Assembly: GCF_009905215.1 (NCBI RefSeq)
Contig: NZ_CP047593.1
Coordinates: 310,001-374,000, forward strand
Source: Tichowtungia aerotolerans
GTDB lineage: Bacteria; Verrucomicrobiota; Kiritimatiellia; Kiritimatiellales; Tichowtungiaceae
Length of the DNA stretch: 64,000 nt
Reading direction: 5' to 3'
Under the pieces are notes generated by a model, which was not told the origin of the DNA, did not search any database, and saw only the letters and a list, made by a program, of their open reading frames with translations. Position 1 is the stretch's first letter; the number at the start of each line of letters is the position of its first letter. Shown here piece by piece: positions 3,393-63,823 of this stretch. A program made the translations under genes and the position numbers.

Positions 3393-4594
3393 GGCTGCGT
3401 TTCATCAAATATCTGGGCGTCTCCCGCAAAACACTGCTGGAGCATAAAATGCGCTCGTTCCTCACCATCCTCGGAATCATTTTCGGGGTGGCCGCCGTAA
3501 TTGCCATGACAGCTATTGGCGAAGGCGCAAAGGAAGAAGCGCTCAAAAGCATCCAGCAGATGGGCATTCAGAATGTTTTTGTCAACGATATCGCCCACAT
3601 CCGAACCAGCGCCCACTCCAAAGGCCGCTATGTCACCGACGGCATCCTCCCCTCCGATATTGCTTTTGCAAAAAAACTGCTGCCTGGCGTCGACCAGACC
3701 GCATCCGTAAAGCAAAAGGAATTTTTCATTCAGACAGGAACCTTCCAGTCGACGATGCCGATCAAAGGAGTTTCGCTGTCCTATCTGGATGTGATGGAGC
3801 TGTCTGCCTCAGACGGACGTCTCTTTGTCCGCACGGATTACGACCTGAACAAAAAAGTGTGCCTGCTCGGACCGGAAGCGGCGGCGCGGCTGTTCAGCCG
3901 GTCGCGGGCCGTCGGCAGCCAGGTTCGCTTCAATGGGGAATCATTCGCTGTCGTCGGCGTTCTTGCGGATCGTCCCGGGGTTGCATCTGATATTCTGGTG
4001 CCCGGACACGCTCCTTTTCTTTACGAAAAAACCATTTCGTTCGAATCGCCTATCACCACGGCCATCTTCCATTTTCGCGACACCGGGGCCATTCAGGTTT
4101 CGTCCCAGCTGCTTGGCGACCTGTTTAAACGTCGCCACTCTGAGCTCGACGACTTTGAGTTGGTTGTGCCCGAAGCGCTGCTCCGCCAGCAGGAACGCAC
4201 TCAGAATATTTTCAACAGCATCATGCTGCTGATCACCGCCATCTCCCTGCTGGTCGGCGGAATCGGAATCATGAATATCATGCTGGCGTCCGTTATGGAA
4301 CGCACCAAGGAAATCGGTATTCGGCGCGGAATGGGCGCCACCCAGTCCGACATTCAGCATCAGTTCCTCGCGGAGGCCGTCGTACTGACATCTGCCGGCG
4401 GCGTCATCGGCATTCTGGTCGGAGTCATCCTCACCAAAATCATCGCCGCCTCCACCGGCTGGCAAACCCATATCCCGATCTCCGCCATCGTCATCGCTTT
4501 CTCTTTTTCCGTCCTGATCGGCGTCCTCTTCGGCTACTACCCGGCCCGGAACGCCAGCGAACTCAACCCCATTGATGCCCTGCGCTATGAATAA
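3389..4594 (+). CDS. MacB-like ABC transporter permease (FtsX family)
   Basis: A 401-residue inner-membrane permease with the MacB layout: a cytoplasmic start, TM1 at about 22-42 ('FLTILGIIFGVAAVIAMTAI'), a large MacB-type periplasmic domain, then three C-terminal membrane segments beginning near 'LLITAISLLVGGIGIMNIML'. The conserved FtsX features 'MNIMLASVMERTKEIGIRR' and the C-terminal 'YYPARNASELNPIDALRYE' are present. GTG at 3389 overlaps the stop of the adaptor gene. The ATPase is a separate upstream gene, as in split MacB-type transporters. MacB-type pumps export macrolides, lipopeptides, toxins or lipoproteins by mechanotransmission; the substrate here is unknown. Confidence 0.92.
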   Translation: MRLRFIKYLGVSRKTLLEHKMRSFLTILGIIFGVAAVIAMTAIGEGAKEEALKSIQQMGIQNVFVNDIAHIRTSAHSKGRYVTDGILPSDIAFAKKLLPGVDQTASVKQKEFFIQTGTFQSTMPIKGVSLSYLDVMELSASDGRLFVRTDYDLNKKVCLLGPEAAARLFSRSRAVGSQVRFNGESFAVVGVLADRPGVASDILVPGHAPFLYEKTISFESPITTAIFHFRDTGAIQVSSQLLGDLFKRRHSELDDFELVVPEALLRQQERTQNIFNSIMLLITAISLLVGGIGIMNIMLASVMERTKEIGIRRGMGATQSDIQHQFLAEAVVLTSAGGVIGILVGVILTKIIAASTGWQTHIPISAIVIAFSFSVLIGVLFGYYPARNASELNPIDALRYE

Positions 4595-5807
4595 GAAAAA
4601 AGCCATCTGGACGATCATCGGTCTGCTGGTCATCGGCGGCATCTTCGTCGCGCTGCGCACCCGCGAAACTGTCCGCAGCGAAGTGCTGCTGCCGATTGAA
4701 CGTGCCCCGTTTATTGAAACCGTCGAAACCCGGGGAGAAGTGGACGCACTTTTCTATGAAGAGCTTCGCGCACCGGGCGGCCGCTACAGCAAACAGCTGA
4801 TCTACCTCTGTCCGGAAGGATCTGAAGTCAGCCCCGGCGATCTCGTCGCTGAATTTGATACCGCTGAACTGCTGCAGAATATTGATGAGCTGCGCGAAAA
4901 AGAAGCGGAAGAAAAACAGGCCCGACTCGATACAGAGCTCACCGCAGACACGGCTATTTTCTCCCAGCAGGTTATTCTCGAACGTTCCAATGAAGAGCTG
5001 AACATTGCTGAAGTCCGGAAAATCAGCATGCAGTACGAAGCGGACAAGCGGCGGTCAATCGCAGTCTCTGAGTTCAACAACGTCCGGCGCTCCGTGCAGG
5101 CTGCCGAAAAAAAGCTCAAACAGCTGCAGTTTGATAAGAAGGAAAAGCTTCGGCGGGTCGACCAGCGCATTGAACGTATCCAGCGCCAGATTTCCAACGT
5201 TGAAAAACAGCTGGAACAATACCGTTTCACGGCGGAGCGCGAATCGCTCGTTGTCTATCCGGTCACCTACATTTCCGGACTTTGGAAAAAAGCGGAAGAA
5301 GGTGATACGCTGTCGCAAAACCGCGAATTCGCACGCCTGCCGGAGTTTTCATCCAAAATCATTCGCGTCTACCTCGAAGAACAGTGGGTCAATAAAATCA
5401 AAGAGCAAGGCGCGGTAACCTTCACGCCGATCTCCTACCCGGAAACGCTGTATCACGGAAACATTCTCTCCATTTCCACACTCGCCACCGAAGGCCACTA
5501 TCGGCAGTATAAAAAATTCTTTGAAGTCATCGTGGAAATCGACAGCAGCGATGCCGAAGCCTTCGCCCGCCTCAAGCCCGGCATGGTCTGCAACCTGCAG
5601 TTTCTAATCCGCAACTGGGGAGAAGCCGTTGCCATTCCAAAAGATTATATTCGAATCTCTCAGGACGGCGTCCCTCTGGCAACCATTCGCGAAGACGACG
5701 GAGGCGATCGCCTGCTTCCGCTTGACGGCACGGCAGAAACCGCCGACTACTATTTGCTCACCAACCGGTCACCGGAACACCTTACACTGGTCTACAAGGA
5801 GCTTTAA
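4587..5807 (+). CDS. HlyD/MacA-family membrane fusion protein (second adaptor)
   Basis: A 406-residue adaptor with a short cytoplasmic tail, one membrane anchor ('WTIIGLLVIGGIFVALRT', about 7-24), lipoyl-like halves ('EELRAPGGRYSKQL' and 'ESLVVYPVTYISG'), a long coiled-coil hairpin between them and a C-terminal barrel. ATG 4587 was chosen over TTG 4572 because it overlaps the permease stop by 8 bp and begins the basic tail MNKKKA. It resembles the adaptor at 2121 in architecture but is clearly diverged. A near-perfect copy of the dispersed palindrome (5272-5288) lies inside the gene. It may form a hetero-oligomeric adaptor with the first protein, or serve a different cargo. Confidence 0.85.
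   Translation: MNKKKAIWTIIGLLVIGGIFVALRTRETVRSEVLLPIERAPFIETVETRGEVDALFYEELRAPGGRYSKQLIYLCPEGSEVSPGDLVAEFDTAELLQNIDELREKEAEEKQARLDTELTADTAIFSQQVILERSNEELNIAEVRKISMQYEADKRRSIAVSEFNNVRRSVQAAEKKLKQLQFDKKEKLRRVDQRIERIQRQISNVEKQLEQYRFTAERESLVVYPVTYISGLWKKAEEGDTLSQNREFARLPEFSSKIIRVYLEEQWVNKIKEQGAVTFTPISYPETLYHGNILSISTLATEGHYRQYKKFFEVIVEIDSSDAEAFARLKPGMVCNLQFLIRNWGEAVAIPKDYIRISQDGVPLATIREDDGGDRLLPLDGTAETADYYLLTNRSPEHLTLVYKEL
5272..5288. repeat. Dispersed palindrome, near-perfect copy
   Basis: TTTCCGG-ACT-TTGGAAA: the right arm is perfect and the left arm matches 5 of 7 positions of the consensus TTTCCAANNNTTGGAAA found throughout this window. It lies within the second adaptor gene. Confidence 0.5.
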
Positions 5808-12106: not shown

Positions 12107-12225
12107 CTCATTACGTGGTGCTCCGGGTCGCTCCGGAGCGGCGACTCAAAGATTACTTTGAGCCGTTACCCTATCGATTGTCCGCCTGCGAATAAATGCA
12201 GACCGATTAGCAATCGATTCTCCTT

Positions 12226-13800
<1,575 letters not shown>

Positions 13801-21348: not shown

Positions 21349-22157
21349 TGGACCTCTTTCACAAAATGTTCAATTGCTGCACGCATCCTCGGCATCGCCT
21401 CTCCGGCCGTCCGGATAACATCTTCGCCGCTGAGCGTTTCGTGCCCCAGTCCCGCGGCCCAGTTACAAACGCAGGACAGGCCTGCCACCTGCAACCCCAG
21501 CGCATTGGCAAAAATCGCCTCCGGCACAGTGGACATACCGACCGCATCGGCTCCAAGCGCACGAAACGCCCTGATTTCTGCCGGCGTTTCAAAAGTCGGC
21601 CCGGATGTGGCCAGATATACCCCGGAGGACGCGCCCGCATCTTCGAGAACCGACCGGAGCGCGGGAGTATATACCGAGCTCTGATCCGGAAACCGATCCC
21701 CGAATGCAGGCTTGTGCGGACCGGCGAGCGGATTGCCGCCCAGCATGTTGATGTGGTCGCTCATCGCCATCAGCGATCCGGGCCCCAGATCCTCGCGAAT
21801 GCCGCCGGATGCATTGGTGAGCAGAACCGTCTGCACACCGAACTGTTTGAGGATCCAGACCGGCAGAACCACCGGTGCCCAGCCTTCTCCCTCATACAGG
21901 TGACGCCGCCCCTGAAAAACAAACACCTCTTTGTCGTTGAATTCAGCATGGATCAGCTGACCTGCGTGACCCGGCGCTCCGGTTTTTCCAAGGTTTGGAA
22001 TCTCTGAATAGGAAAGAGAGGCCTTCACCGCAAACCCTGAAACGGCGTCTCTCCAGCCGGAGCCGAGAATAATCCCGAATGCCGGTTTAGCATTCGGCCA
22101 GACGGCTTTCACCGCAGAAACCGCTTCATCCAATACCGTCTGATTGATCGCATGCAT
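21345..22157 (-). CDS. Purine nucleoside phosphorylase (trimeric inosine/guanosine type)
   Basis: A 270-residue phosphorylase splitting purine nucleosides into base and sugar-1-phosphate. It shows the phosphate-binding 'GIILGSGW' near residue 28, 'GAPGHAGQLI', 'VFQGRRHLYEGEG', 'LTNASGGI' and the substrate segment 'GPTFETPAEIRAFRALGADAVGMS'. The usual 'TN.AAG' base-binding segment reads 'VCNWAAGLG'. ATG 22157 starts the homologous region. It is divergent from guanine deaminase with a 40-bp gap, and leads a coupled operon with carbonic anhydrase and cytidine deaminase. A dispersed palindrome lies at 21985-22001. Confidence 0.93.
   Translation of the reverse strand: MHAINQTVLDEAVSAVKAVWPNAKPAFGIILGSGWRDAVSGFAVKASLSYSEIPNLGKTGAPGHAGQLIHAEFNDKEVFVFQGRRHLYEGEGWAPVVLPVWILKQFGVQTVLLTNASGGIREDLGPGSLMAMSDHINMLGGNPLAGPHKPAFGDRFPDQSSVYTPALRSVLEDAGASSGVYLATSGPTFETPAEIRAFRALGADAVGMSTVPEAIFANALGLQVAGLSCVCNWAAGLGHETLSGEDVIRTAGEAMPRMRAAIEHFVKEVQ
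21985..22001. repeat. Dispersed palindrome inside the phosphorylase gene
   Basis: TTTCCAA-GGT-TTGGAAT: perfect 12-base core TTCCAA/TTGGAA around a 3-base centre. Confidence 0.8.
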
Positions 22158-26894: not shown

Positions 26895-26929
26895 AACGAG
26901 GCGTTTCCAATATTTGGAAACGCCTCGTT
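26895..26929 (+). terminator. Terminator whose stem contains the dispersed palindrome
   Basis: A perfect 16-bp stem (AACGAGGCGTTTCCAA paired with TTGGAAACGCCTCGTT) with loop TAT, followed by TGTTTTTAAT. The upper stem and loop are exactly TTTCCAATATTTGGAAA (26904-26920), a perfect copy of the palindrome found across the window. Confidence 0.9.
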
Positions 26930-27648: not shown

Positions 27649-28923
27649 TCACCCAACAACCTCACAAACCAGCGGTTGCGGTTCAAAATGATCGCCGAGT
27701 TCAAAGGCGTTTCCAACCATTGGAAGACTCTCGTCGAAACAGTTCCGATCATTGGAAAAAATGACGGCGAGCGAGTCGCCTTTTTTGACTTCCTCGCCCG
27801 GCTTTTTCATCTGACCGATCCCAACGGCGTGATCAATGGTGTCGTCGGTTTTCTGGCGTCCGGCACCGAGTACAAGGCAGGCTTTGCCGATCAGATCGGC
27901 GTCGACGGTCGTAACGATTCCGTCGGCAGGCGCGAGAACCGGCTCCTGAATCTTCGCCGCCGCAAATTTCCAGTCGGTTGATCCGCCCTGCGCAGCGACC
28001 ATTTCCTCAAATTTTTTCATCGCCGTACCGTTTTCCAAACATTGGAAAATTTCGGCATTCGTTTTATGAACATTGGAAAGTTCAAGCATGTGCGCGGTCA
28101 GCGCGACGGTCAGCTCGCGCAGATCATCCGGTCCGCCGCCGCGAAGCACCTCGATGCATTCCTGCACCTCAAGGACGTTGCCGGCGGCGCGACCGAGCGG
28201 CTGGTTCATGTCGGTAATGAGCGCGCGGACTTTTTTGTCCATCGCCCGACCAACGTCAACCATGGCCTGGGCTAACTGACGAGCCTCCTCACGGGTTTTC
28301 ATGAACGCGCCTTTGCCCCACTTCACATCGAGCACGAGCGTATCGAGACCTTCGGCGAGCTTTTTGCTCATGATGGATGCGGTAATAAGCGGGATGGAGG
28401 GAACAGTGCCGGTAACGTCGCGCAAAGCGTAGAGTTTTTTATCGGCCGGAGCGAGCTGCGCGGTCTGGCCGATGATGGAACAGCCGACGTTTTCCAGGGT
28501 TTGGAAGAACTCCTTTTCGGAGAGATTTGTGCGGTAGCCGGGAATCGATTCCAGCTTGTCGAGCGTGCCGCCGGTGATGCCGAGGCCGCGCCCGGAGATC
28601 ATCGGAACGGTGAGGCCGCAGGCGGCGGCGAGCGGTGCGAGGATCAGCGAGGTTTTATCGCCGATACCGCCGGTCGAATGTTTGTCGGCCTTGATTCCCG
28701 GCAGGCTGGCCGGGTCAATTGTTTCGCCGGAGAGCATCATCTCCGTGGTCAGTGCGGCGGTTTCGGCAGGCGTCATTCCCTGGAAACAGATCGCCATCGC
28801 CAGGGCGGACATCTGATAGTCCGGAATGCTTCCCTCGGTGAATCCCTCAATGAAAAAGCGGATTTCATCGGCAGAAAGCTCGTTTCCTTCGCGTTTTCTT
28901 TCGATTATCCATTGAGGAAGCAT
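27649..28923 (-). CDS. deoA: Thymidine/pyrimidine-nucleoside phosphorylase
   Basis: A 424-residue enzyme releasing the base from thymidine or uridine with phosphate. The glycosyltransferase-family signature 'KADKHSTGGIGDKTSLILAP' (about 78-97), 'GRGLGITGGTLDKLESIPG' and 'DVKWGKGAFM' are intact. The start at 28923 begins the conserved 'QWIIERKREG'. It can be assigned to nucleoside salvage with cdd and the purine phosphorylase. The gene carries five full or partial copies of the dispersed palindrome (27710, 27742, 28032, about 28063 and 28491), the densest cluster in the window; they encode peptides such as 'FQCLENG', 'FFQTLEN' and 'VGNAFE'. Confidence 0.93.
   Translation of the reverse strand: MLPQWIIERKREGNELSADEIRFFIEGFTEGSIPDYQMSALAMAICFQGMTPAETAALTTEMMLSGETIDPASLPGIKADKHSTGGIGDKTSLILAPLAAACGLTVPMISGRGLGITGGTLDKLESIPGYRTNLSEKEFFQTLENVGCSIIGQTAQLAPADKKLYALRDVTGTVPSIPLITASIMSKKLAEGLDTLVLDVKWGKGAFMKTREEARQLAQAMVDVGRAMDKKVRALITDMNQPLGRAAGNVLEVQECIEVLRGGGPDDLRELTVALTAHMLELSNVHKTNAEIFQCLENGTAMKKFEEMVAAQGGSTDWKFAAAKIQEPVLAPADGIVTTVDADLIGKACLVLGAGRQKTDDTIDHAVGIGQMKKPGEEVKKGDSLAVIFSNDRNCFDESLPMVGNAFELGDHFEPQPLVCEVVG
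27710..27758. repeat. Pair of dispersed palindromes, centres 32 bp apart
   Basis: TTTCCAA-CCA-TTGGAAG (27710-27726) has a perfect core. GTTCCGA-TCA-TTGGAAA (27742-27758) has one core mismatch. Both lie in the 3' part of the thymidine phosphorylase gene. Confidence 0.75.
28032..28079. repeat. Dispersed palindrome plus half-site, centres 31 bp apart
   Basis: TTTCCAA-ACA-TTGGAAA (28032-28048) is perfect over 17 bp. A half-site CATTGGAAA ends at 28079 with a degenerate left arm. Confidence 0.75.
28491..28507. repeat. Dispersed palindrome, imperfect
   Basis: TTTCCAG-GGT-TTGGAAG within the thymidine phosphorylase gene; one core mismatch. Confidence 0.55.
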
Positions 28924-34258: not shown

Positions 34259-35196
34259 ACAGCCACCTCCTTCTCTCCGGCGTCTTCGGTCGTGGTAATC
34301 TGACGGAAAACATCGTCCAGCCGACCTTCGTCGACCTTGATGTCGGAAACCGTCCAGTGATTCTGCTGGGCCGCAGCGAGAATATCGGCGGCAATGGATT
34401 CTCCGGACTTTGGAAACGCGACGATTTTTCCGTCGTCGATCGTTTCGATTTTTCCAATGTTTGGAAGCTGTTCGAGCGCCGGAACAATCCCTTCGCCTTC
34501 TGCGGAGAAGGTGACGGCGTTGTACTGGTTGCTGCGCGTTTTGAGCGCGGCCGGCGTGTCGTCGGCAACCACTTTCCCGGCGCTGATGATAATGGCGCGG
34601 GTGCAGATGGCTTCAACCTCTTCAAGGACATGGGTCGAAAGCATGATGACGCGTTCGGAGGCCATCTCCCGAATCATGTCGCGCACGACCTGCTTCTGGT
34701 TGGGGTCGAGCCCTTCGGTCGGTTCGTCGAGAAGAAGAATATCCGGATCGTGCAGCAGTGCCTGCGCGAGGCAGGTGCGCTGGCGGTATCCTTTGGAAAG
34801 CGTGTCGATGGTCTGCCCGGCGACCGGCTGCAGGAAACAGCGTTCTACGGCGCGGTCCACGCGGCGTTCGCGTTCGCTGCCGCTGAACCCGCGGACTTCC
34901 GCAATGAAACGAAGGAATCCCGATACGGTCATATCCTCGTACAGCGGCGTCGTCTCAGGCATGTAGCCGATGTTTTTCTGTGCACGGACAGGATCTGATG
35001 CAACGTTGATCCCTTTTACTTCGACGATACCGGATGTCGGTGGAAGAAATCCGGCCACCATTCGGATCGTAGTGGTTTTCCCGGCCCCGTTCGGCCCAAG
35101 AAATCCCAGCACGGTTCCCTTATCGACTTCGAACGACACGCCGTCGACGGCACGTCTCCTGCCGAAGTCTCTGACCAATCCCTGTGCTTTGATCAT
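34255..35196 (-). CDS. GldA-like ABC transporter ATP-binding protein
   Basis: A 313-residue ATPase with Walker A GPNGAGKTT (34-42), a Q-loop, signature 'LSKGYRQR' (133-140) and Walker B ILLLDEP (153-159). The 90-residue C-terminal extension is usual for ABC-2 exporters of this group. It is the first gene of the operon, with an AAGGAG ribosome site. A perfect-core palindrome lies at 34451-34467 with a partial site centred at 34408. Confidence 0.93.
   Translation of the reverse strand: MIKAQGLVRDFGRRRAVDGVSFEVDKGTVLGFLGPNGAGKTTTIRMVAGFLPPTSGIVEVKGINVASDPVRAQKNIGYMPETTPLYEDMTVSGFLRFIAEVRGFSGSERERRVDRAVERCFLQPVAGQTIDTLSKGYRQRTCLAQALLHDPDILLLDEPTEGLDPNQKQVVRDMIREMASERVIMLSTHVLEEVEAICTRAIIISAGKVVADDTPAALKTRSNQYNAVTFSAEGEGIVPALEQLPNIGKIETIDDGKIVAFPKSGESIAADILAAAQQNHWTVSDIKVDEGRLDDVFRQITTTEDAGEKEVAV
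34451..34467. repeat. Dispersed palindrome in the GldA-like gene
   Basis: TTTCCAA-TGT-TTGGAAG, centre 34459, perfect core. A partial site TCTCCGG-ACT-TTGGAAA is centred 51 bp away. Confidence 0.75.
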
Positions 35197-43031: not shown

Positions 43032-43458
43032 TTCGACTACCTTTTTCATCTGCGTACATTCGCGTTCATTGGCGACTCTGTCCACAGACGATGGGTCAAG
43101 TCGTCTATAGTTCAGAACCTCTGCGACCTTGGCGGCTCTGCGCGAGATCTGTTTTCCGAAGTTTGGATTTTTTGGTGCTGTTTTGTGTTTTTCGTGGCGA
43201 TCAACAGTTCATGCCTCCTGCATCCAAAATAGCCATCATCCCCGGAACCAAGGTCTGAGACGAACAACCAACCGCCGATTACACGGATCGCGCAGATTTG
43301 ACTCAGGCCTTCAGCAAAAACAGGCTTTTGTATCCGTATACATCCGTTTAATCCGCGGTAAAAACAATAAACCCGCGTGAACAACCCGCGTTTACAGATC
43401 TTTTCCAAAGGTTGGAAAAAAGGTAGGGTTTTCTTCCAAACCTTGGAAGAACAGAGAT
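43032..43458. other. Intergenic stretch made largely of degenerate repeat fragments
   Basis: No convincing gene. It holds internally repetitive fragments: CTCTGCGACCTTGGCGGCTC near 43119, GTGTTTTTCGTGGCGATC near 43184, ACACGGATCGCGCAGATTTG near 43280, and ATCCGTATACATCCGTTTAA near 43330. Fragments of this look commonly fill gaps in PVC and related genomes. Two perfect-core palindromes at 43402-43449 close the stretch just ahead of uvrA. Confidence 0.55.
43402..43449. repeat. Two perfect-core palindromes 31 bp apart upstream of uvrA
   Basis: TTTCCAA-AGG-TTGGAAA (43402-43418) and CTTCCAA-ACC-TTGGAAG (43433-43449), centres 43410 and 43441. The second ends 9 bp before the uvrA ATG, covering the ribosome-site region, so binding there could affect expression. 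Confidence 0.8.
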
Positions 43459-46278
43459 ATGAACGGAAAATGGATTACAGTTTCGGGCGCGCGGGAGCAC
43501 AACCTCAGGAATGTGGATGTGCGGATTCCGCGCAATAAGCTGACGGTCATCACGGGACTGAGCGGATCGGGCAAGTCGTCGCTGGCGTTCGACACCCTCT
43601 ATGCCGAGGGCCAGCGCAAATATGTCGAAAGCCTCTCGGCCTACGCCCGCCAGTTCCTCGAACAGATGCAGAAGCCGGACGTCGACACCATCGAAGGCCT
43701 TTCGCCGGCCATCTCCATCGAACAGCGCACCGCCGGCTCCAACCCGCGCTCCATCGTCGCCACTGTCACCGAAATCCACGACTACCTGCGCCTGCTTTTT
43801 CCAAGCATTGGAAAAGTCCACTGCCCGTCATGCGGCAAACCGATCCAGCAGCAGAGCGCGGAAAACATTACCGAGCAGCTGCTGGCGCTGCCGGAAAAAA
43901 CGCGCGTCATGCTGCTCGCGCCGCTCGTGCGCGGACGCAAGGGAAAGCACGAAGAGGTGTTCGAAAGCATCCGGCGACAGGGCTTCGTCCGCATGCGCGT
44001 GGACGGCGAACTGCTGGAAATCGAAAATGCACCCGATCTCGAAAAAAACAAAAAGCACACCATTGAAGCGGTCGTCGACCGGCTCGTCATCAACCCGTCC
44101 GACCGCAGCCGCATCAACGACTCCGTCGAGCTGGCGCTCTCCACCGGCGAAGGACTGCTCATCGCCATGATCCAGAATGGAAATGACTGGGACGACCGGC
44201 TCTACTCCGAAAAAAACGCCTGCCTCGACTGCAACATCAGCTTTGAAAGCTTTACGCCGAAACACTTTTCGTTCAACAGCCCTTACGGCGCCTGCCAGAC
44301 CTGCCACGGCCTCGGCAACATGCTCACCTTCGACGAAGAACTGGTAGTGCCCAACGAAGAACTTCCGCTCGAAGAAGCGATCCATCCGTGGCGGCGCGGC
44401 GGCCGCCGCGCCATCATCTACTATAAAAAGCTGCTGGCATCCGTCGCCGACGCCTACGGAGTCGACCTGAGCACCCCGTTCAATGAACTGCCCGCGAGCT
44501 TCAAAAAAGTCCTGTTTTACGGATCCGACGAGCCGATCAGCTACTACATGCGCCGCCGCAAAATCGTCAAACCGTTCGAGGGCGTCATTCCCAACCTCGA
44601 ACGCCGCTACACCGAGAGCGACAGCGAGTGGACGCAGGAACGCCTGCGCGCCTACATGGGCAACCGCCGCTGTACGGCCTGCCACGGCGCGCGCCTGCGC
44701 CCCGAAAGCCTCGCCTGCACCATCGGCGGACAGAATATCCACGAGCTGTGCCGGCTCTCCATCGAGAAGGCGCAGGCGTTTTTCCAGGGTTTGAAACTTT
44801 CCAAAGAGGAGGCGCACATCGCCAAAGACATCCTCAAGGAAATCCAGTCCCGACTCGGCTTCATGATGGATGTCGGCCTCGACTACCTGACGCTCGACCG
44901 CGAGAGCGGAACGCTCTCCGGCGGCGAGGCCCAGCGCATCCGGCTGGCCACGCAGATCGGCTCGCGCCTGACCGGTGTGCTCTACGTACTCGACGAGCCG
45001 AGCATCGGACTGCATCAGCGCGATAACGACCGGCTGCTCGCGACGCTCAAAGAGCTGCGCGACCTCGGCAATACGGTGGTTGTGGTCGAGCACGACGAGC
45101 AAACGATCCGCGAAGCCGATTATGTAATCGACCTCGGCCCCGGCGCGGGCGTCCACGGCGGCGAAATCGTGTTCGCCGGAACACCGGCGCAGCTTCTGCG
45201 GGCCAAAAAGTCGCTGACGGCGCAGTACCTGCGGCGCGAAGTGGAAATCGAAGTGCCGGAAAAACGAACCAAAGCCAAAAGCGGTTTCCTCGAAATCCGC
45301 GGCGCAGCCGAAAACAATCTGAAGAATGTAAACGTCAAAATTCCGCTGGGGCTGCTGACCTGCGTGACCGGCGTGTCCGGCTCCGGCAAAAGTACGCTGA
45401 CTGACGATGTGCTGCGCCGCGCGCTCTTCCGCCGCTTTTTCGGGTCGAAGGAGCGCCCCGGCAAACACAAGGAGCTGCGCGGGGTTGAGAATATCGACAA
45501 GGTGATCGTGATCGACCAGTCACCGATCGGCCGCACGCCGCGCAGTAATCCGGCCACGTACACCGGCGCGTTTTCAATTATCCGCGACCTGTTCGCACAG
45601 CTGCCCGCATCGAAAGTGCGCGGCTACAAGCCGGGACGCTTCAGCTTTAACGTCAAAGGCGGACGATGCGAACACTGTCAGGGCGACGGCCTGCTGAAGA
45701 TTGAAATGCATTTTCTGCCGGATGTGTATGTGACCTGCCCGCAGTGCAGCGGCAAGCGCTATAACCGCGAAACGCTGGAGGTGCACTACAACGGCAAGAA
45801 CATTTCCGAGGTGCTGGAAATGACGATTAACGAGTCGTGCGAATTTTTCAGCGCCATTCCCGGCATCGAACGCAAGCTGCGCACGCTGCGCGAGGTCGGC
45901 CTCGGCTACCTGCGGCTCGGCCAGCCCGCCACCACCCTTTCCGGAGGCGAGGCCCAGCGCATCAAGCTTTCGGCGGAGCTCAGCAAAAAAGCGACCGGCA
46001 AGACGCTCTACATTCTCGACGAGCCGACCACCGGCCTGCACTTTGCCGACGTCCATAAGCTGGTCGAAGTGCTCGAAACCCTGCGCGACGAAGGCAATAC
46101 CGTGCTGGTGATTGAGCACAATCTGGATGTGATCAAGCGCGCCGACTGGCTGATCGACCTCGGCCCCGAGGGCGGCGAACGCGGCGGAAAGGTCGTGGTA
46201 GCAGGCACGCCGGAGAAGGTTTCAAAAACCGTAGAATCCTATACGGGAAAATACTTGGCAGAAATGCTGAGTGAATAG
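43459..46278 (+). CDS. uvrA: UvrABC excision nuclease subunit A
   Basis: A 939-residue damage-recognition ATPase of nucleotide excision repair, at normal length. It has two ABC modules with Walker A '[16 protein letters not shown]' near the start and '[15 protein letters not shown]' in the second half, signatures '[16 protein letters not shown]' and '[16 protein letters not shown]', and Walker B segments ending '[11 protein letters not shown]' and '[11 protein letters not shown]'. Zinc modules are visible as [12 protein letters not shown]...CQTC and CEHC...CPQC. A palindrome copy at 43798-43814 encodes 'FPSIGK' at a conserved position without an insertion. The long antisense open frame here is a composition shadow. 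Confidence 0.98.
43798..43814. repeat. Dispersed palindrome inside uvrA
   Basis: TTTCCAA-GCA-TTGGAAA, perfect over 17 bp. Confidence 0.85.
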
Positions 46279-50754: not shown

Positions 50755-51546
50755 TCAGTTGCTCAGGCGATCCAGCCGCAAACGATGCCGGTGATCGAAC
50801 AGCCGATGGGATGTGAGCCAGACTGCAACCAGCGTTCCAAACCCCGTCCCGCCTGCGATCAGGAACATGATCAGGATCTGATACTTCACAGAATCGACCG
50901 GCGGATTGCCGGCCAGGATCTGACCGGTCATCATGCCCGGCAGACTCACAATCCCCGCCGCAGCCATTGCATTGATAATCGGAATCAGCCCCGTACGAAC
51001 ACTGTCGTGTCGAATATCTGAAACCGCCTCGCTCTTTGTCTGCCCGAGCGCCAGCCGGGTTTCAATCACGGCACGGTTCCGGCGAATATTCTGCGTCAGA
51101 TGGTTGAGCGACAGCGACAGCCCGTTCATCGTATTGCCCAGCATCATGCCGAGCAGCGGAATCGCATAGCGCGGCGCATACCACGGTTCCGGCCCCACAA
51201 TGACCGCCAGTGCCAGAACCGTAACCGCAAATGATGAAATAAACATCGCAGTGAGCCCGGCGCCGAAGCCCCATCCGCCGCGCAGCGGATGCTTCTGGCG
51301 CGCCAGCACCTCCCGGCCTGCTGCGAACAGCATCACCAGACTCATCAACAGGACCCATCCCGGAGCAGTCCCGGCAAACAGCGCCTTCAGAACAAAACCA
51401 ATCAGCGACAGCTGCAGTACCGTACGGACGGCACTCCAGATCAGCCGGCCGCCGATTCCCAACCGCAAACGACGGCAGACAACGGCCAGCGCAACCACCA
51501 GCAGTGCCGCAAGGCTTAAATCAAACGCGGTAAGCTGGATAATCAT
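50755..51546 (-). CDS. FetB-like ABC permease (UPF0014 family)
   Basis: A 263-residue membrane protein with seven or so hydrophobic segments and the family blocks 'YAIPLLGMMLGNTMNGLSLSL' and 'GLIPIINAMAAAGIVSLPGMMTGQILAG'. In E. coli FetAB is linked to iron export and oxidative stress; in plants related proteins confer aluminium tolerance. ATG 51546 overlaps the ATPase stop. The stop codon abuts that of the convergent zinc-ribbon gene. Confidence 0.9.
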   Translation of the reverse strand: MIIQLTAFDLSLAALLVVALAVVCRRLRLGIGGRLIWSAVRTVLQLSLIGFVLKALFAGTAPGWVLLMSLVMLFAAGREVLARQKHPLRGGWGFGAGLTAMFISSFAVTVLALAVIVGPEPWYAPRYAIPLLGMMLGNTMNGLSLSLNHLTQNIRRNRAVIETRLALGQTKSEAVSDIRHDSVRTGLIPIINAMAAAGIVSLPGMMTGQILAGNPPVDSVKYQILIMFLIAGGTGFGTLVAVWLTSHRLFDHRHRLRLDRLSN

Positions 51547-52148
51547 GACGTCTCCTCCAGCGTGCCGTTTTTGAATTCCATGTGGCAATCCGCCGTCCGG
51601 TCAATCTGTTCCGGACTGTGACTCACCCACACCACCGCCGCATCAGCGTTGCGGCGATACGCACCAATCACCTCTTCCACCTTCCAAACATTGGAAACAT
51701 CCAGCGCAGCCGTCGGTTCATCCAGCAGCAGCACCTTCGGCTCATTCAGCAAAAGCCGGACAAGCGCCAGCCGCTGCTTCTCGCCGGTCGAAAGCCGCTC
51801 GACGTTCCAGTTCAGCACATCCTTTTCAAATCCAAGCTTTTCCAACCAGTGGAAATATTTCTTCCAATTATTGGAAAAATGGTCGCCGACCACATCGGTC
51901 CACCATGACGATTCCGCCGGAAGCCAGCCGACCTGCCGCCGCCATTCGGGAGCCGTCATTTCGTTTCGATCGGTCCCATCCAGAGCAACCGTCCCCTCTG
52001 CCGGATCCAGATCCGCCAGCGCACGCAGCAGCAGGGTTTTTCCACAGCCCGACGGACCGGACAAAGCCACACATTTTCCAGCCTCGACCGAAAATGAAAA
52101 AGGACCGCCGCAAACCGTGCGCAGATTTTCAGATGCAAACCGAACCAT
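51543..52148 (-). CDS. FetA-like ABC transporter ATP-binding protein
   Basis: A 201-residue minimal ATPase with Walker A 'GPSGCGKTLLLRAL', signature 'LSTGEKQRLALVRLL' and Walker B 'VLLLDEPTAALD'. The family 'PAES...D' adaptor segment reads 'LPAESSWWTDVVGDHF'. It carries three palindrome copies, two of them 22 bp apart, encoding 'SNVWKVE', 'FSNNWKKY' and 'FHWLEKLG'; that is an unusual density for a 606-bp gene. Confidence 0.9.
   Translation of the reverse strand: MVRFASENLRTVCGGPFSFSVEAGKCVALSGPSGCGKTLLLRALADLDPAEGTVALDGTDRNEMTAPEWRRQVGWLPAESSWWTDVVGDHFSNNWKKYFHWLEKLGFEKDVLNWNVERLSTGEKQRLALVRLLLNEPKVLLLDEPTAALDVSNVWKVEEVIGAYRRNADAAVVWVSHSPEQIDRTADCHMEFKNGTLEETS
51681..51697. repeat. Dispersed palindrome in the FetA-like gene
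   Basis: CTTCCAA-ACA-TTGGAAA with a perfect 12-base core. Confidence 0.8.
51839..51877. repeat. Pair of palindromes, centres 22 bp apart
   Basis: TTTCCAA-CCA-GTGGAAA (centre 51847, one mismatch) and CTTCCAA-TTA-TTGGAAA (centre 51869, perfect core) in the FetA-like gene. Confidence 0.75.
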
Positions 52149-52267: not shown

Positions 52268-52284
52268 TTTCCAACCATTGGAAA
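52268..52284. repeat. Dispersed palindrome just past the ilvD stop
   Basis: TTTCCAA-CCA-TTGGAAA, perfect over 17 bp. It ends 1 bp from the ilvD stop codon, between convergently placed sequence and the FetA-like promoter region. Confidence 0.85.
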
Positions 52285-57861: not shown

Positions 57862-57878
57862 TTTCCAAGCTTTGGAAA
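57862..57878. repeat. Dispersed palindrome between genes
   Basis: TTTCCAA-GCT-TTGGAAA, perfect over 17 bp, 6 bp after a terminator and 60 bp before the next start. Confidence 0.85.
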
Positions 57879-58673: not shown

Positions 58674-58696
58674 TTTTTTCCAAACATTGGAAAAAA
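58674..58696. repeat. Extended dispersed palindrome upstream of ymdB
   Basis: TTTTTTCCAA-ACA-TTGGAAAAAA is a perfect 23-bp palindrome, the longest copy in the window. It ends 19 bp before the ymdB ATG, where it could act as an operator. Confidence 0.85.
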
Positions 58697-62885: not shown

Positions 62886-63823
62886 CGTATTCCTTCAATT
62901 GTTTGTTCGAGTTTCTGCCGAAGTTCGGCATTAAGCGGTAAGTATTCTGCGGCAGCAATCGCCGCACGATAATCGTCGATATTTTTCGCACCCATGCAGA
63001 TGGTATGGGCTCCGGGATGATCCAGAATCCAGCGGATAGCGGCCTGTGCCATGGTCATACCTTCCGGCAGGCAGTCTGCCAACGGGGCAAAACGGGAATA
63101 GTCTTCGCTTTTGCACCAGTTGGACCGGTTGTCGTCAGAGCGAAATGCCGGGGTGTTCTGAAAATATTTTCCGCTGAGGCGGCCCTGTGCCATCACCCCG
63201 CGCACCTGCGTGCCGAGGCGGTTCTGCTGACAAAGTTTCCAAACATTGGAACTTTCATCCAGCAGATTGGAAGCAAACTGAACCACCTCAACAGCATCAT
63301 GTTTCACCATCGCCTCGATCAGTTCCGCATTGTTGGTGGAAATTCCGTACGAACGGATTTTTCCCTGCTCCCGCGCTTTTTCGAGCACCGCGCGGCCGTC
63401 ATCGATCCATTCCATTTCCGGCGCGCAGTGATAGAGATACACGTCAATAAAATCGGTACGAAGCCGTTTCAGCGATCCTTCAAGGCTGGGCATAATGGTT
63501 TCCGGTGCAGAACAGTCTTCTCGTGTGTTATTCGGCCCGACCCTGAACCCGAACTTTGTTGAAACGACCCATTGATCGCGGCGGTCCCGGAGCGCCTCGC
63601 CGACCCGCCGCTCCGATTCGCCTGCGCTGTACTGCTCTGCCGTATCGATGGCATTGACACCCAGATCGTCCAGTTCGTGAATCATGCGGATCACATCTTC
63701 TTTACCGGGATCGGGATGCCCGTCCGGCTTGCCGTCAAAAAAGAGCGGTCCGCCCAGCTGCCATGCACCGATTGTAATCGGCGACACTTCGATTCCTGTT
63801 TTCCCAAGTACATTCCGTTTCAT
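62882..63823 (-). CDS. Aldo/keto reductase
   Basis: A 313-residue NADPH-dependent reductase of the AKR superfamily. Catalytic residues sit in 'AIDTAEQYSAGESE' (Asp and Tyr) and 'WVVSTKFGF' (Lys). The cofactor motif near the end reads 'HTICMGAKNIDDYRAAIAA'. The start at 63823 overlaps the UbiA-family stop by 1 bp (TAATG). A dispersed palindrome (63236-63252) and a half-site lie in the gene. Its substrate is unknown, but pairing with the phosphoglucomutase-like gene suggests sugar metabolism. Confidence 0.92.
   Translation of the reverse strand: MKRNVLGKTGIEVSPITIGAWQLGGPLFFDGKPDGHPDPGKEDVIRMIHELDDLGVNAIDTAEQYSAGESERRVGEALRDRRDQWVVSTKFGFRVGPNNTREDCSAPETIMPSLEGSLKRLRTDFIDVYLYHCAPEMEWIDDGRAVLEKAREQGKIRSYGISTNNAELIEAMVKHDAVEVVQFASNLLDESSNVWKLCQQNRLGTQVRGVMAQGRLSGKYFQNTPAFRSDDNRSNWCKSEDYSRFAPLADCLPEGMTMAQAAIRWILDHPGAHTICMGAKNIDDYRAAIAAAEYLPLNAELRQKLEQTIEGIR
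63236..63273. repeat. Dispersed palindrome plus half-site 21 bp apart
   Basis: TTTCCAA-ACA-TTGGAAC (centre 63244, perfect core) and the half-site ATTGGAAG (implied centre 63265) inside the aldo/keto reductase gene. Confidence 0.65.

Follow-up and report, generated by a model that had tools for sequence, protein, structure and literature searches.

The question raised by this locus is why the same gapped palindrome recurs inside unrelated protein-coding genes, and whether selection there acts on the DNA. In the window (the whole stretch of 64,000 nucleotides that was analysed), the earlier note had counted three copies in a FetA-like ATPase gene of 606 bp and five full or partial copies in deoA. 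Both counts were reproduced, the former comprising two exact copies and one with one mismatch (encoding SNVWK, SNNWK and FHWLEK, respectively) and the latter two exact, two one-mismatch and one three-mismatch copies. The features are as follows, with window coordinates, genes given with their strand, palindrome copies given without one, and relatives cited by G numbers.

51543..52148, minus strand: FetA-like ABC ATPase gene (ORF, 606 bp; PF00005, E=4e-30), three copies
51682..51696: copy in the FetA-like gene, TTCCAAACATTGGAA, peptide SNVWK; exact, same place in G003
51840..51854: copy in the FetA-like gene, TTCCAACCAGTGGAA, peptide FHWLEK; one mismatch, next copy 22 bp away
51862..51876: copy in the FetA-like gene, TTCCAATTATTGGAA, peptide SNNWK; exact, orthologous copy in G010 and G002
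52269..52283: intergenic copy, TTCCAACCATTGGAA; exact
27649..28923, minus strand: deoA (pyrimidine-nucleoside phosphorylase; Pfam pyrimidine/thymidine phosphorylase domains), five full or partial copies
27711..27725: deoA copy 1; exact, kept in G010, G002 and G003
27743..27757: deoA copy 2; one mismatch, 32 bp from copy 1
28033..28047: deoA copy 3; exact, likewise exact in G002, G003 and G004
28064..28078: deoA copy 4; damaged (three mismatches), 31 bp from copy 3, one mismatch in G010
28492..28506: deoA copy 5; one mismatch, exact in G010, G002 and G004
43459..46278, plus strand: uvrA (PF17755/PF17760/PF00005), orthologues in 58/58 relatives
43799..43813: uvrA copy, TTT CCA AGC ATT GGA AAA = FPSIGK; exact, used in the orthologue comparison
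43403..43417: first member of a 31-bp phased pair upstream of uvrA; exact, pair kept in G001 with new spacers
43434..43448: second member of the same pair; exact
21986..22000: palindrome copy; exact
26905..26919: palindrome copy; exact
34452..34466: palindrome copy; exact
57863..57877: palindrome copy; exact
58678..58692: palindrome copy; exact
63237..63251: palindrome copy; exact

The FetA-like ATPase gene is adjoined by a gene for a UPF0014/FetB-like permease. A scan of the window for gapped palindromes identified TTCCAA-N3-TTGGAA as the sole strong one, with 14 exact copies compared with 0.003 expected from composition. Genome-wide (one contig of 3,882,676 bp), the motif TTTCCRRNSNYYGGAAA, with the core TTCCAANNNTTGGAA, was present in 567 exact copies where base composition predicts approximately 0.2, and its reversed control was present in 0 copies. 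The chance expectation calculated from the hexamer counts themselves was about 0.05 per 104 kb. Near copies were counted in an 864-kb sample representing 22% of the same genome, on which the phasing and gene-context statistics are also based. This sample contained 159 exact, 146 one-mismatch (chance ~2) and 150 two-mismatch copies (chance ~31), and three-mismatch copies were close to chance (338 vs ~306), all chance figures being the binomial expectation for 12 fixed bases.

The consensus TTTCCRRNSNYYGGAAA was derived from exact and near copies and describes a motif of 15-17 bp with a 3-bp spacer and AT-rich outer arms, in which the flanking T/A preference is 74%, the central base is C or G in 94% of copies and the remaining two spacer bases are loosely constrained. 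Beyond 2-3 bases, the flanks of copies are not shared. One-mismatch deviations cluster at few positions (inner A5 to G, 61; A4 to G, 31; C2 to T, 14), and only 16 of the 150 two-mismatch copies are symmetric. As the remaining 134 are asymmetric, no RNA stem or cruciform is being kept by pairing. Judged from these base changes, the tolerance pattern looks like that of a site contacted by a protein dimer.

The strongest clue to mechanism, absent from the earlier note, is helical phasing. Neighbouring copies are spaced 22, 31/32, 41-43, 53 and 63 bp apart, corresponding to whole turns of the helix. In the 864-kb sample, 54 close neighbours were observed where 12 were expected, and 50 of the 54 nearest neighbours at 16-130 bp lie within 2 bp of a multiple of 10.5 bp (expected fraction 0.38; Rayleigh z=34 at 10.5 bp). 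The same phasing is seen inside coding sequence, both for pairs with the two members in predicted genes (n=23, z=20) and for CDS pairs 130-400 bp apart (n=19, z=12, best period 10.46), and a 3-bp periodicity was looked for among CDS pairs and not seen. Phasing over all pairs was not clear past 400 bp in the own-genome sample. When three relatives (G048, G010 and G001) were pooled, short-range phasing was again found (n=81, z=61.5), with weak phasing at 130-400 bp (n=21, z=3.2), and further relatives show a 31/32 alternation (G057) or mixed spacings of 22 and 30-31 bp (G132, G146). Named loci retrieved by the paired-site pattern were excluded from this evidence, since their spacing is not independent of the search. 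Simple tandem duplication would not readily give spacings that alternate between 31 and 32 (mean 31.5, three turns). The linkers of adjacent pairs resemble one another only somewhat more than random linkers do (0.45 vs 0.35), duplicated linkers are present in some arrays, and in a few relatives the arrays give the impression of partial tandem duplication (G132).

Copies with at most one mismatch occur at 0.26 per kb in coding sequence and at 0.86, 0.82 and 1.12 per kb in tandem, convergent and divergent gaps, respectively, as delimited by a simple purpose-written gene finder (86% coding). All three reading frames are used by the copies in coding sequence. No build-up was found near gene starts, upstream distances running from 20 to 300 bp with no peak. 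Genes beside arrays are mutually unrelated in this genome and in its relatives, and many of those at upstream sites have housekeeping functions. Around the chromosome, copy density is fairly even with a few near-empty stretches.

The earlier note had proposed that selection acts on the DNA and had named, as the pattern that would speak against this, orthologues that keep the residues and lose the palindrome at synonymous positions. Orthologues of exact sites were therefore aligned and compared with control windows shifted by multiples of 3, which are codon-phase-matched; because one site may be aligned to several genomes, the alignments behind the statistics below are non-independent. In motif-rich relatives (35 alignments, 25 distinct sites), arms are 93% identical and the 3-bp spacer 65%, and arms with at most one change are found at 89% of sites vs 23% of shifted windows (Fisher p about 2e-15). 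In motif-poor congeners (15 alignments, 10 sites), the corresponding values are 33% vs 23% (p=0.36), with arms at 76% and spacers at 78%. Arm retention thus differs between motif-rich and motif-poor relatives (p 0.0002), and the proposal is borne out where the motif is abundant: the arms are kept while the spacer drifts. Synonymous loss with retained residues was also seen, mainly in genomes in which the motif is much rarer, one example being the uvrA FPSIGK site with CCG or ATC codons in G008/G009. Exact copies of this site are found in the own genome and in G010, G004, G013 and G012, and copies with one or two changes, most of them synonymous, in G001, G005, G008, G009 and G006.

At a second position in uvrA (alignment column 1392), TTT TTC CAA nnn TTG is found in G010, G004, G001, G013, G005, G018, G035 and G014, which are motif-rich genomes of two families, and the middle codon varies freely (G, T, A, S). 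In motif-poor genomes of the second family, the position of Q is occupied by E, N, K, D or G. In those of the own genus, the site shows CAG or CTG codons, A or, in G012, a copy with one mismatch. The FetA-like gene has its paired sites 22 bp apart in the own genome and 31 bp apart in G010 and G002 owing to an in-frame 9-bp difference in the linker, so that reading frame and helical face are both preserved. Both sites of the pair are lost in motif-poor G006, and the third site (SNVWK) is exact in G003.

These alignments also bear on how copies arise, which the earlier note had ascribed to substitution rather than insertion. The uvrA sites occur at unchanged length in ungapped alignments, with orthologues reading F(A)SIGK in place of FPSIGK, and the FPSIGK copy entails no length change. 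Substitution accounts for most copies, and the ascription has to be qualified for arrays that look partly tandem-duplicated (G132) and for in-frame linker indels. In a separate observation, in-frame insertions of ~80-190 bp occur at palindrome positions in uvrA (G010, L179 11414-11491) and in the FetA-like gene (G003/G007, L490/L491); some of them are repeat-like, and the reading frames stay open.

Across 58 relatives, motif density ranges from 0 to about 380 per Mb, with wide variation within one genus. In a survey of 289 genomes of the phylum, all those outside the class have 0-5 copies (control 0-2), and within the class several families hold genomes with 60-1300 copies and others none; contrasts occur inside genera (151 in G211 vs 5 in G054; 170 in G120 vs 2 in G300). 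Among the matches listed in a search of 85,000 species genomes for a phased pair, the names given were Kiritimatiellae, Kiritimatiellales, Pontiellaceae, PVC group, Verrucomicrobia, Lentisphaerae or uncultured. The motif is restricted to a single class, Kiritimatiellia (the assignment being taken from the names of matched records), and is patchy even within genera. Genus g7 carries a shifted motif (GTCCAA...TTGGAC): G046 has 66 copies of GTCCAANNNTTGGAC and 150 of TCCAANSNTTGGA cores, with 32-bp pairs, and G073 has 96 cores. GTCCAANNNTTGGAC is present in 0-3 copies in the other 57 genomes, and many other motif-free genomes are almost devoid of such a core. No alternative palindrome was found in a search of the motif-free genomes G015/G016. 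A candidate in G053, a motif-free member of the class, proved to be a longer dispersed repeat (L442-L444), with the core GCACCC(n3)GGGTGC flanked by conserved arms of ~30 bp.

Phasing within coding sequence, a constraint on the arms that follows genome-wide density, degeneracy of a protein-like kind and the shifted outer bases of one lineage point jointly to a DNA-binding dimer that acts in trans, with sites selected chromosome-wide. A dimeric protein that recognises this sequence is, in our view, the probable binder of the palindrome, acting along the whole chromosome in the manner of a nucleoid protein and not at chosen promoters; the architectural role is suggested by the lack of promoter bias and by the phasing. 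Each dimer would recognise both half-sites, TTTCCRR and its complement, on either side of the central C/G, and neighbouring dimers would lie on one face of the helix because their sites are whole turns apart (2, 3, 4, 5 or 6). Presumed to oligomerise, such same-face dimers could contact one another and bend, wrap, bridge or loop the DNA. Selection for the grid would fix arms by point substitution wherever genic or intergenic DNA tolerates it, at the cost of some amino-acid changes, and in a lineage losing the protein, or the need for it, the sites would decay neutrally. However, many sites are isolated singles, which a model of oligomerising dimers does not need. Taken further, and held with slightly more doubt than belief, the system may be a helically phased chromatin grid, in which selection writes hundreds of palindromic anchors into genes, on one face over tens to several hundred bp, as the scaffold for a dedicated protein whose specificity drifts between genera and which has been lost repeatedly.

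Among the alternatives, a HIP-like iterated palindrome would owe its origin or upkeep to DNA methylation, through a methyltransferase together with repair bias, as has been suggested for cyanobacterial HIP1 (GCGATCGC). HIP1 and its alternates show the same extreme over-representation in and out of genes, spread by substitution, patchiness and replaceability by another palindrome; the genome-wide, mostly coding and lineage-patchy occurrence seen here, with a variant replacing the motif in some genomes, is as reported for HIP (PMC4390886). Whereas HIP, an 8-mer with alternates of 5-8 bp, reaches about 1000-2000 per Mb and is linked to methyltransferases (PMC4390886), the present motif is gapped, 15-17 bp long, present at about 30-380 exact copies per Mb where it occurs, spaced by whole turns and degenerate in a protein-like way. 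It shares genome-wide over-representation and substitution origin inside coding sequence (uvrA, deoA, FetA-like) with the HIP class but is not the short GC-rich palindrome (5-8 bp) that defines it. Its free 3-bp spacer and graded, one-sided tolerance are unlike a discrete methyltransferase target, and mismatch-repair bias does not predict helical phasing, so that this account is unlikely. Mutational or repair bias could help to create sites but alone would not yield whole-turn spacing; selection is deduced from conservation. HIP1 periodicity is reportedly the subject of Xu et al. 2018.

The palindromes might instead be operators of a global transcription factor with a very large regulon. Cooperative regulators such as Lrp typically have their operators arrayed at whole turns (PMC2995911), and an intergenic density 3-4 times that of coding sequence would agree with this. 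Yet most sites are within genes, the three kinds of gap are similar in density, sites are not concentrated upstream of starts (20 to 300 bp, no peak) and adjacent genes are unrelated and often housekeeping, which makes a regulon decidedly improbable. Very improbable is a DNA-uptake or self-recognition signal serving transformation, recombination or defence. Hundreds of copies arising by substitution would suit such a tag, as would leftover phased copies at defence- or toxin-like genes in some motif-poor genomes and the presence of the phased pair in only three of 2.9 million viral contigs, but a tag needs no whole-turn spacing and the viral scarcity is uninformative unless the share of viruses infecting the class is known. 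Nor are uptake and Chi signals known to take the form of phased palindromes. Mobile palindromic elements (REP, MITE, protein-coding palindromic elements) or RNA hairpins/terminators would likewise be palindromic and dispersed, with some arrays tandem-duplicated (G132). However, this explanation, to which we give next to no credence, is already contradicted by the unshared flanks (beyond 2-3 bases), by substitution at unchanged length in orthologue alignments, by arm changes that are usually uncompensated (134/150 two-mismatch sites not symmetric) and by the phasing, which RNA leaves unexplained.

The preferred reading, a chromosome-wide dimer, has functional parallels. Operator arrays of Lrp/AsnC consist of imperfect inverted repeats of 13-17 bp clustered two or three helical turns apart on one face (PMC2995911), as are the 22 and 31/32 bp peaks here (2 or 3 turns). 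Such arrays mostly occupy control regions and have AT-rich centres, whereas the present copies have a central C/G (94%) and lie genome-wide in coding sequence. EspR, a nucleoid-associated protein of Mycobacterium tuberculosis, has hundreds of genic and intergenic sites, cooperative dimers and looping, with a short, degenerate motif, TTTGC[TC][GA] (PMC3315491); that paper describes no helically phased 17-bp palindrome maintained by selection. By analogy, the system would function most like Lrp-type arrays, with their two- and three-turn spacing, and like a sequence-specific nucleoid protein of the EspR kind, and as a genomic phenomenon it resembles HIP1. The palindromes matS (MatP) and parS (ParB) are also dispersed, dimer-bound and involved in chromosome organisation, but number tens of copies in one chromosomal domain, unlike the hundreds found here fairly evenly round the chromosome. 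A search of literature available without subscription found neither the string TTCCAANNNTTGGAA nor a description of such palindromes in the class. On the preferred reading, the system would be a clear case of selection for chromosome-level DNA binding overriding protein and codon choice, with frame and helical phase both kept, and would provide a sequence-readable map of a bacterial chromatin scaffold, most known nucleoid proteins binding too degenerately for this.

Because some close relatives have lost the system and one genus has a shifted version, comparative genomics offers a way to look for its binder. Lrp/AsnC was rejected as the universal binder: it is single copy, is present in 52/58 genomes including motif-free ones and has the same DNA-binding region regardless of motif density, so that the single Lrp of the class, unlike the expectation for Lrp arrays, does not track the motif. 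Neighbours of dense arrays or leftover pairs in eleven relatives were also searched and were unrelated to one another. A DUF1456/YehS gene (G000:C1:3138385-3138834; L157 18385-18834) has two upstream copies and, within the order, DUF1456 is present in 11/13 motif-rich vs 1/11 motif-poor genomes (p=0.0006). It was discarded as a universal factor, being absent from all ten motif-rich genomes searched outside the order, and is retained as a lead only; it has no solved relative, and its predicted fold has a pLDDT of 44. None of these searches yielded a binding protein, which weighs against the preferred reading.

Leftover phased pairs were noted in near-motif-free genomes (G054:C28 (L477) 1332-1378 and 12182-12228; G050:C392 (L479) 4000-4045; G056:C30 (L478) 5392-5470; G300:C27 (L476) 2241-2286), several of them at or flanking genes that, named by eye from sequence, are restriction-modification-, nucleotidyltransferase- or toxin-antitoxin-like, as if imported from motif-rich relatives. 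A similarity search of plasmids returned chance-level matches only. In exact copies of the own-genome sample, the spacers ACA and TGT number 21 vs 2 at negative GC skew and 10 vs 12 at positive skew, a weak imbalance that could reflect orientation relative to replication or, possibly, composition. Finally, ~126 kb of the same genome (94.6-220.6 kb, including the 20-kb segment 200001-220000) is without exact copies and is perhaps a recently acquired region.
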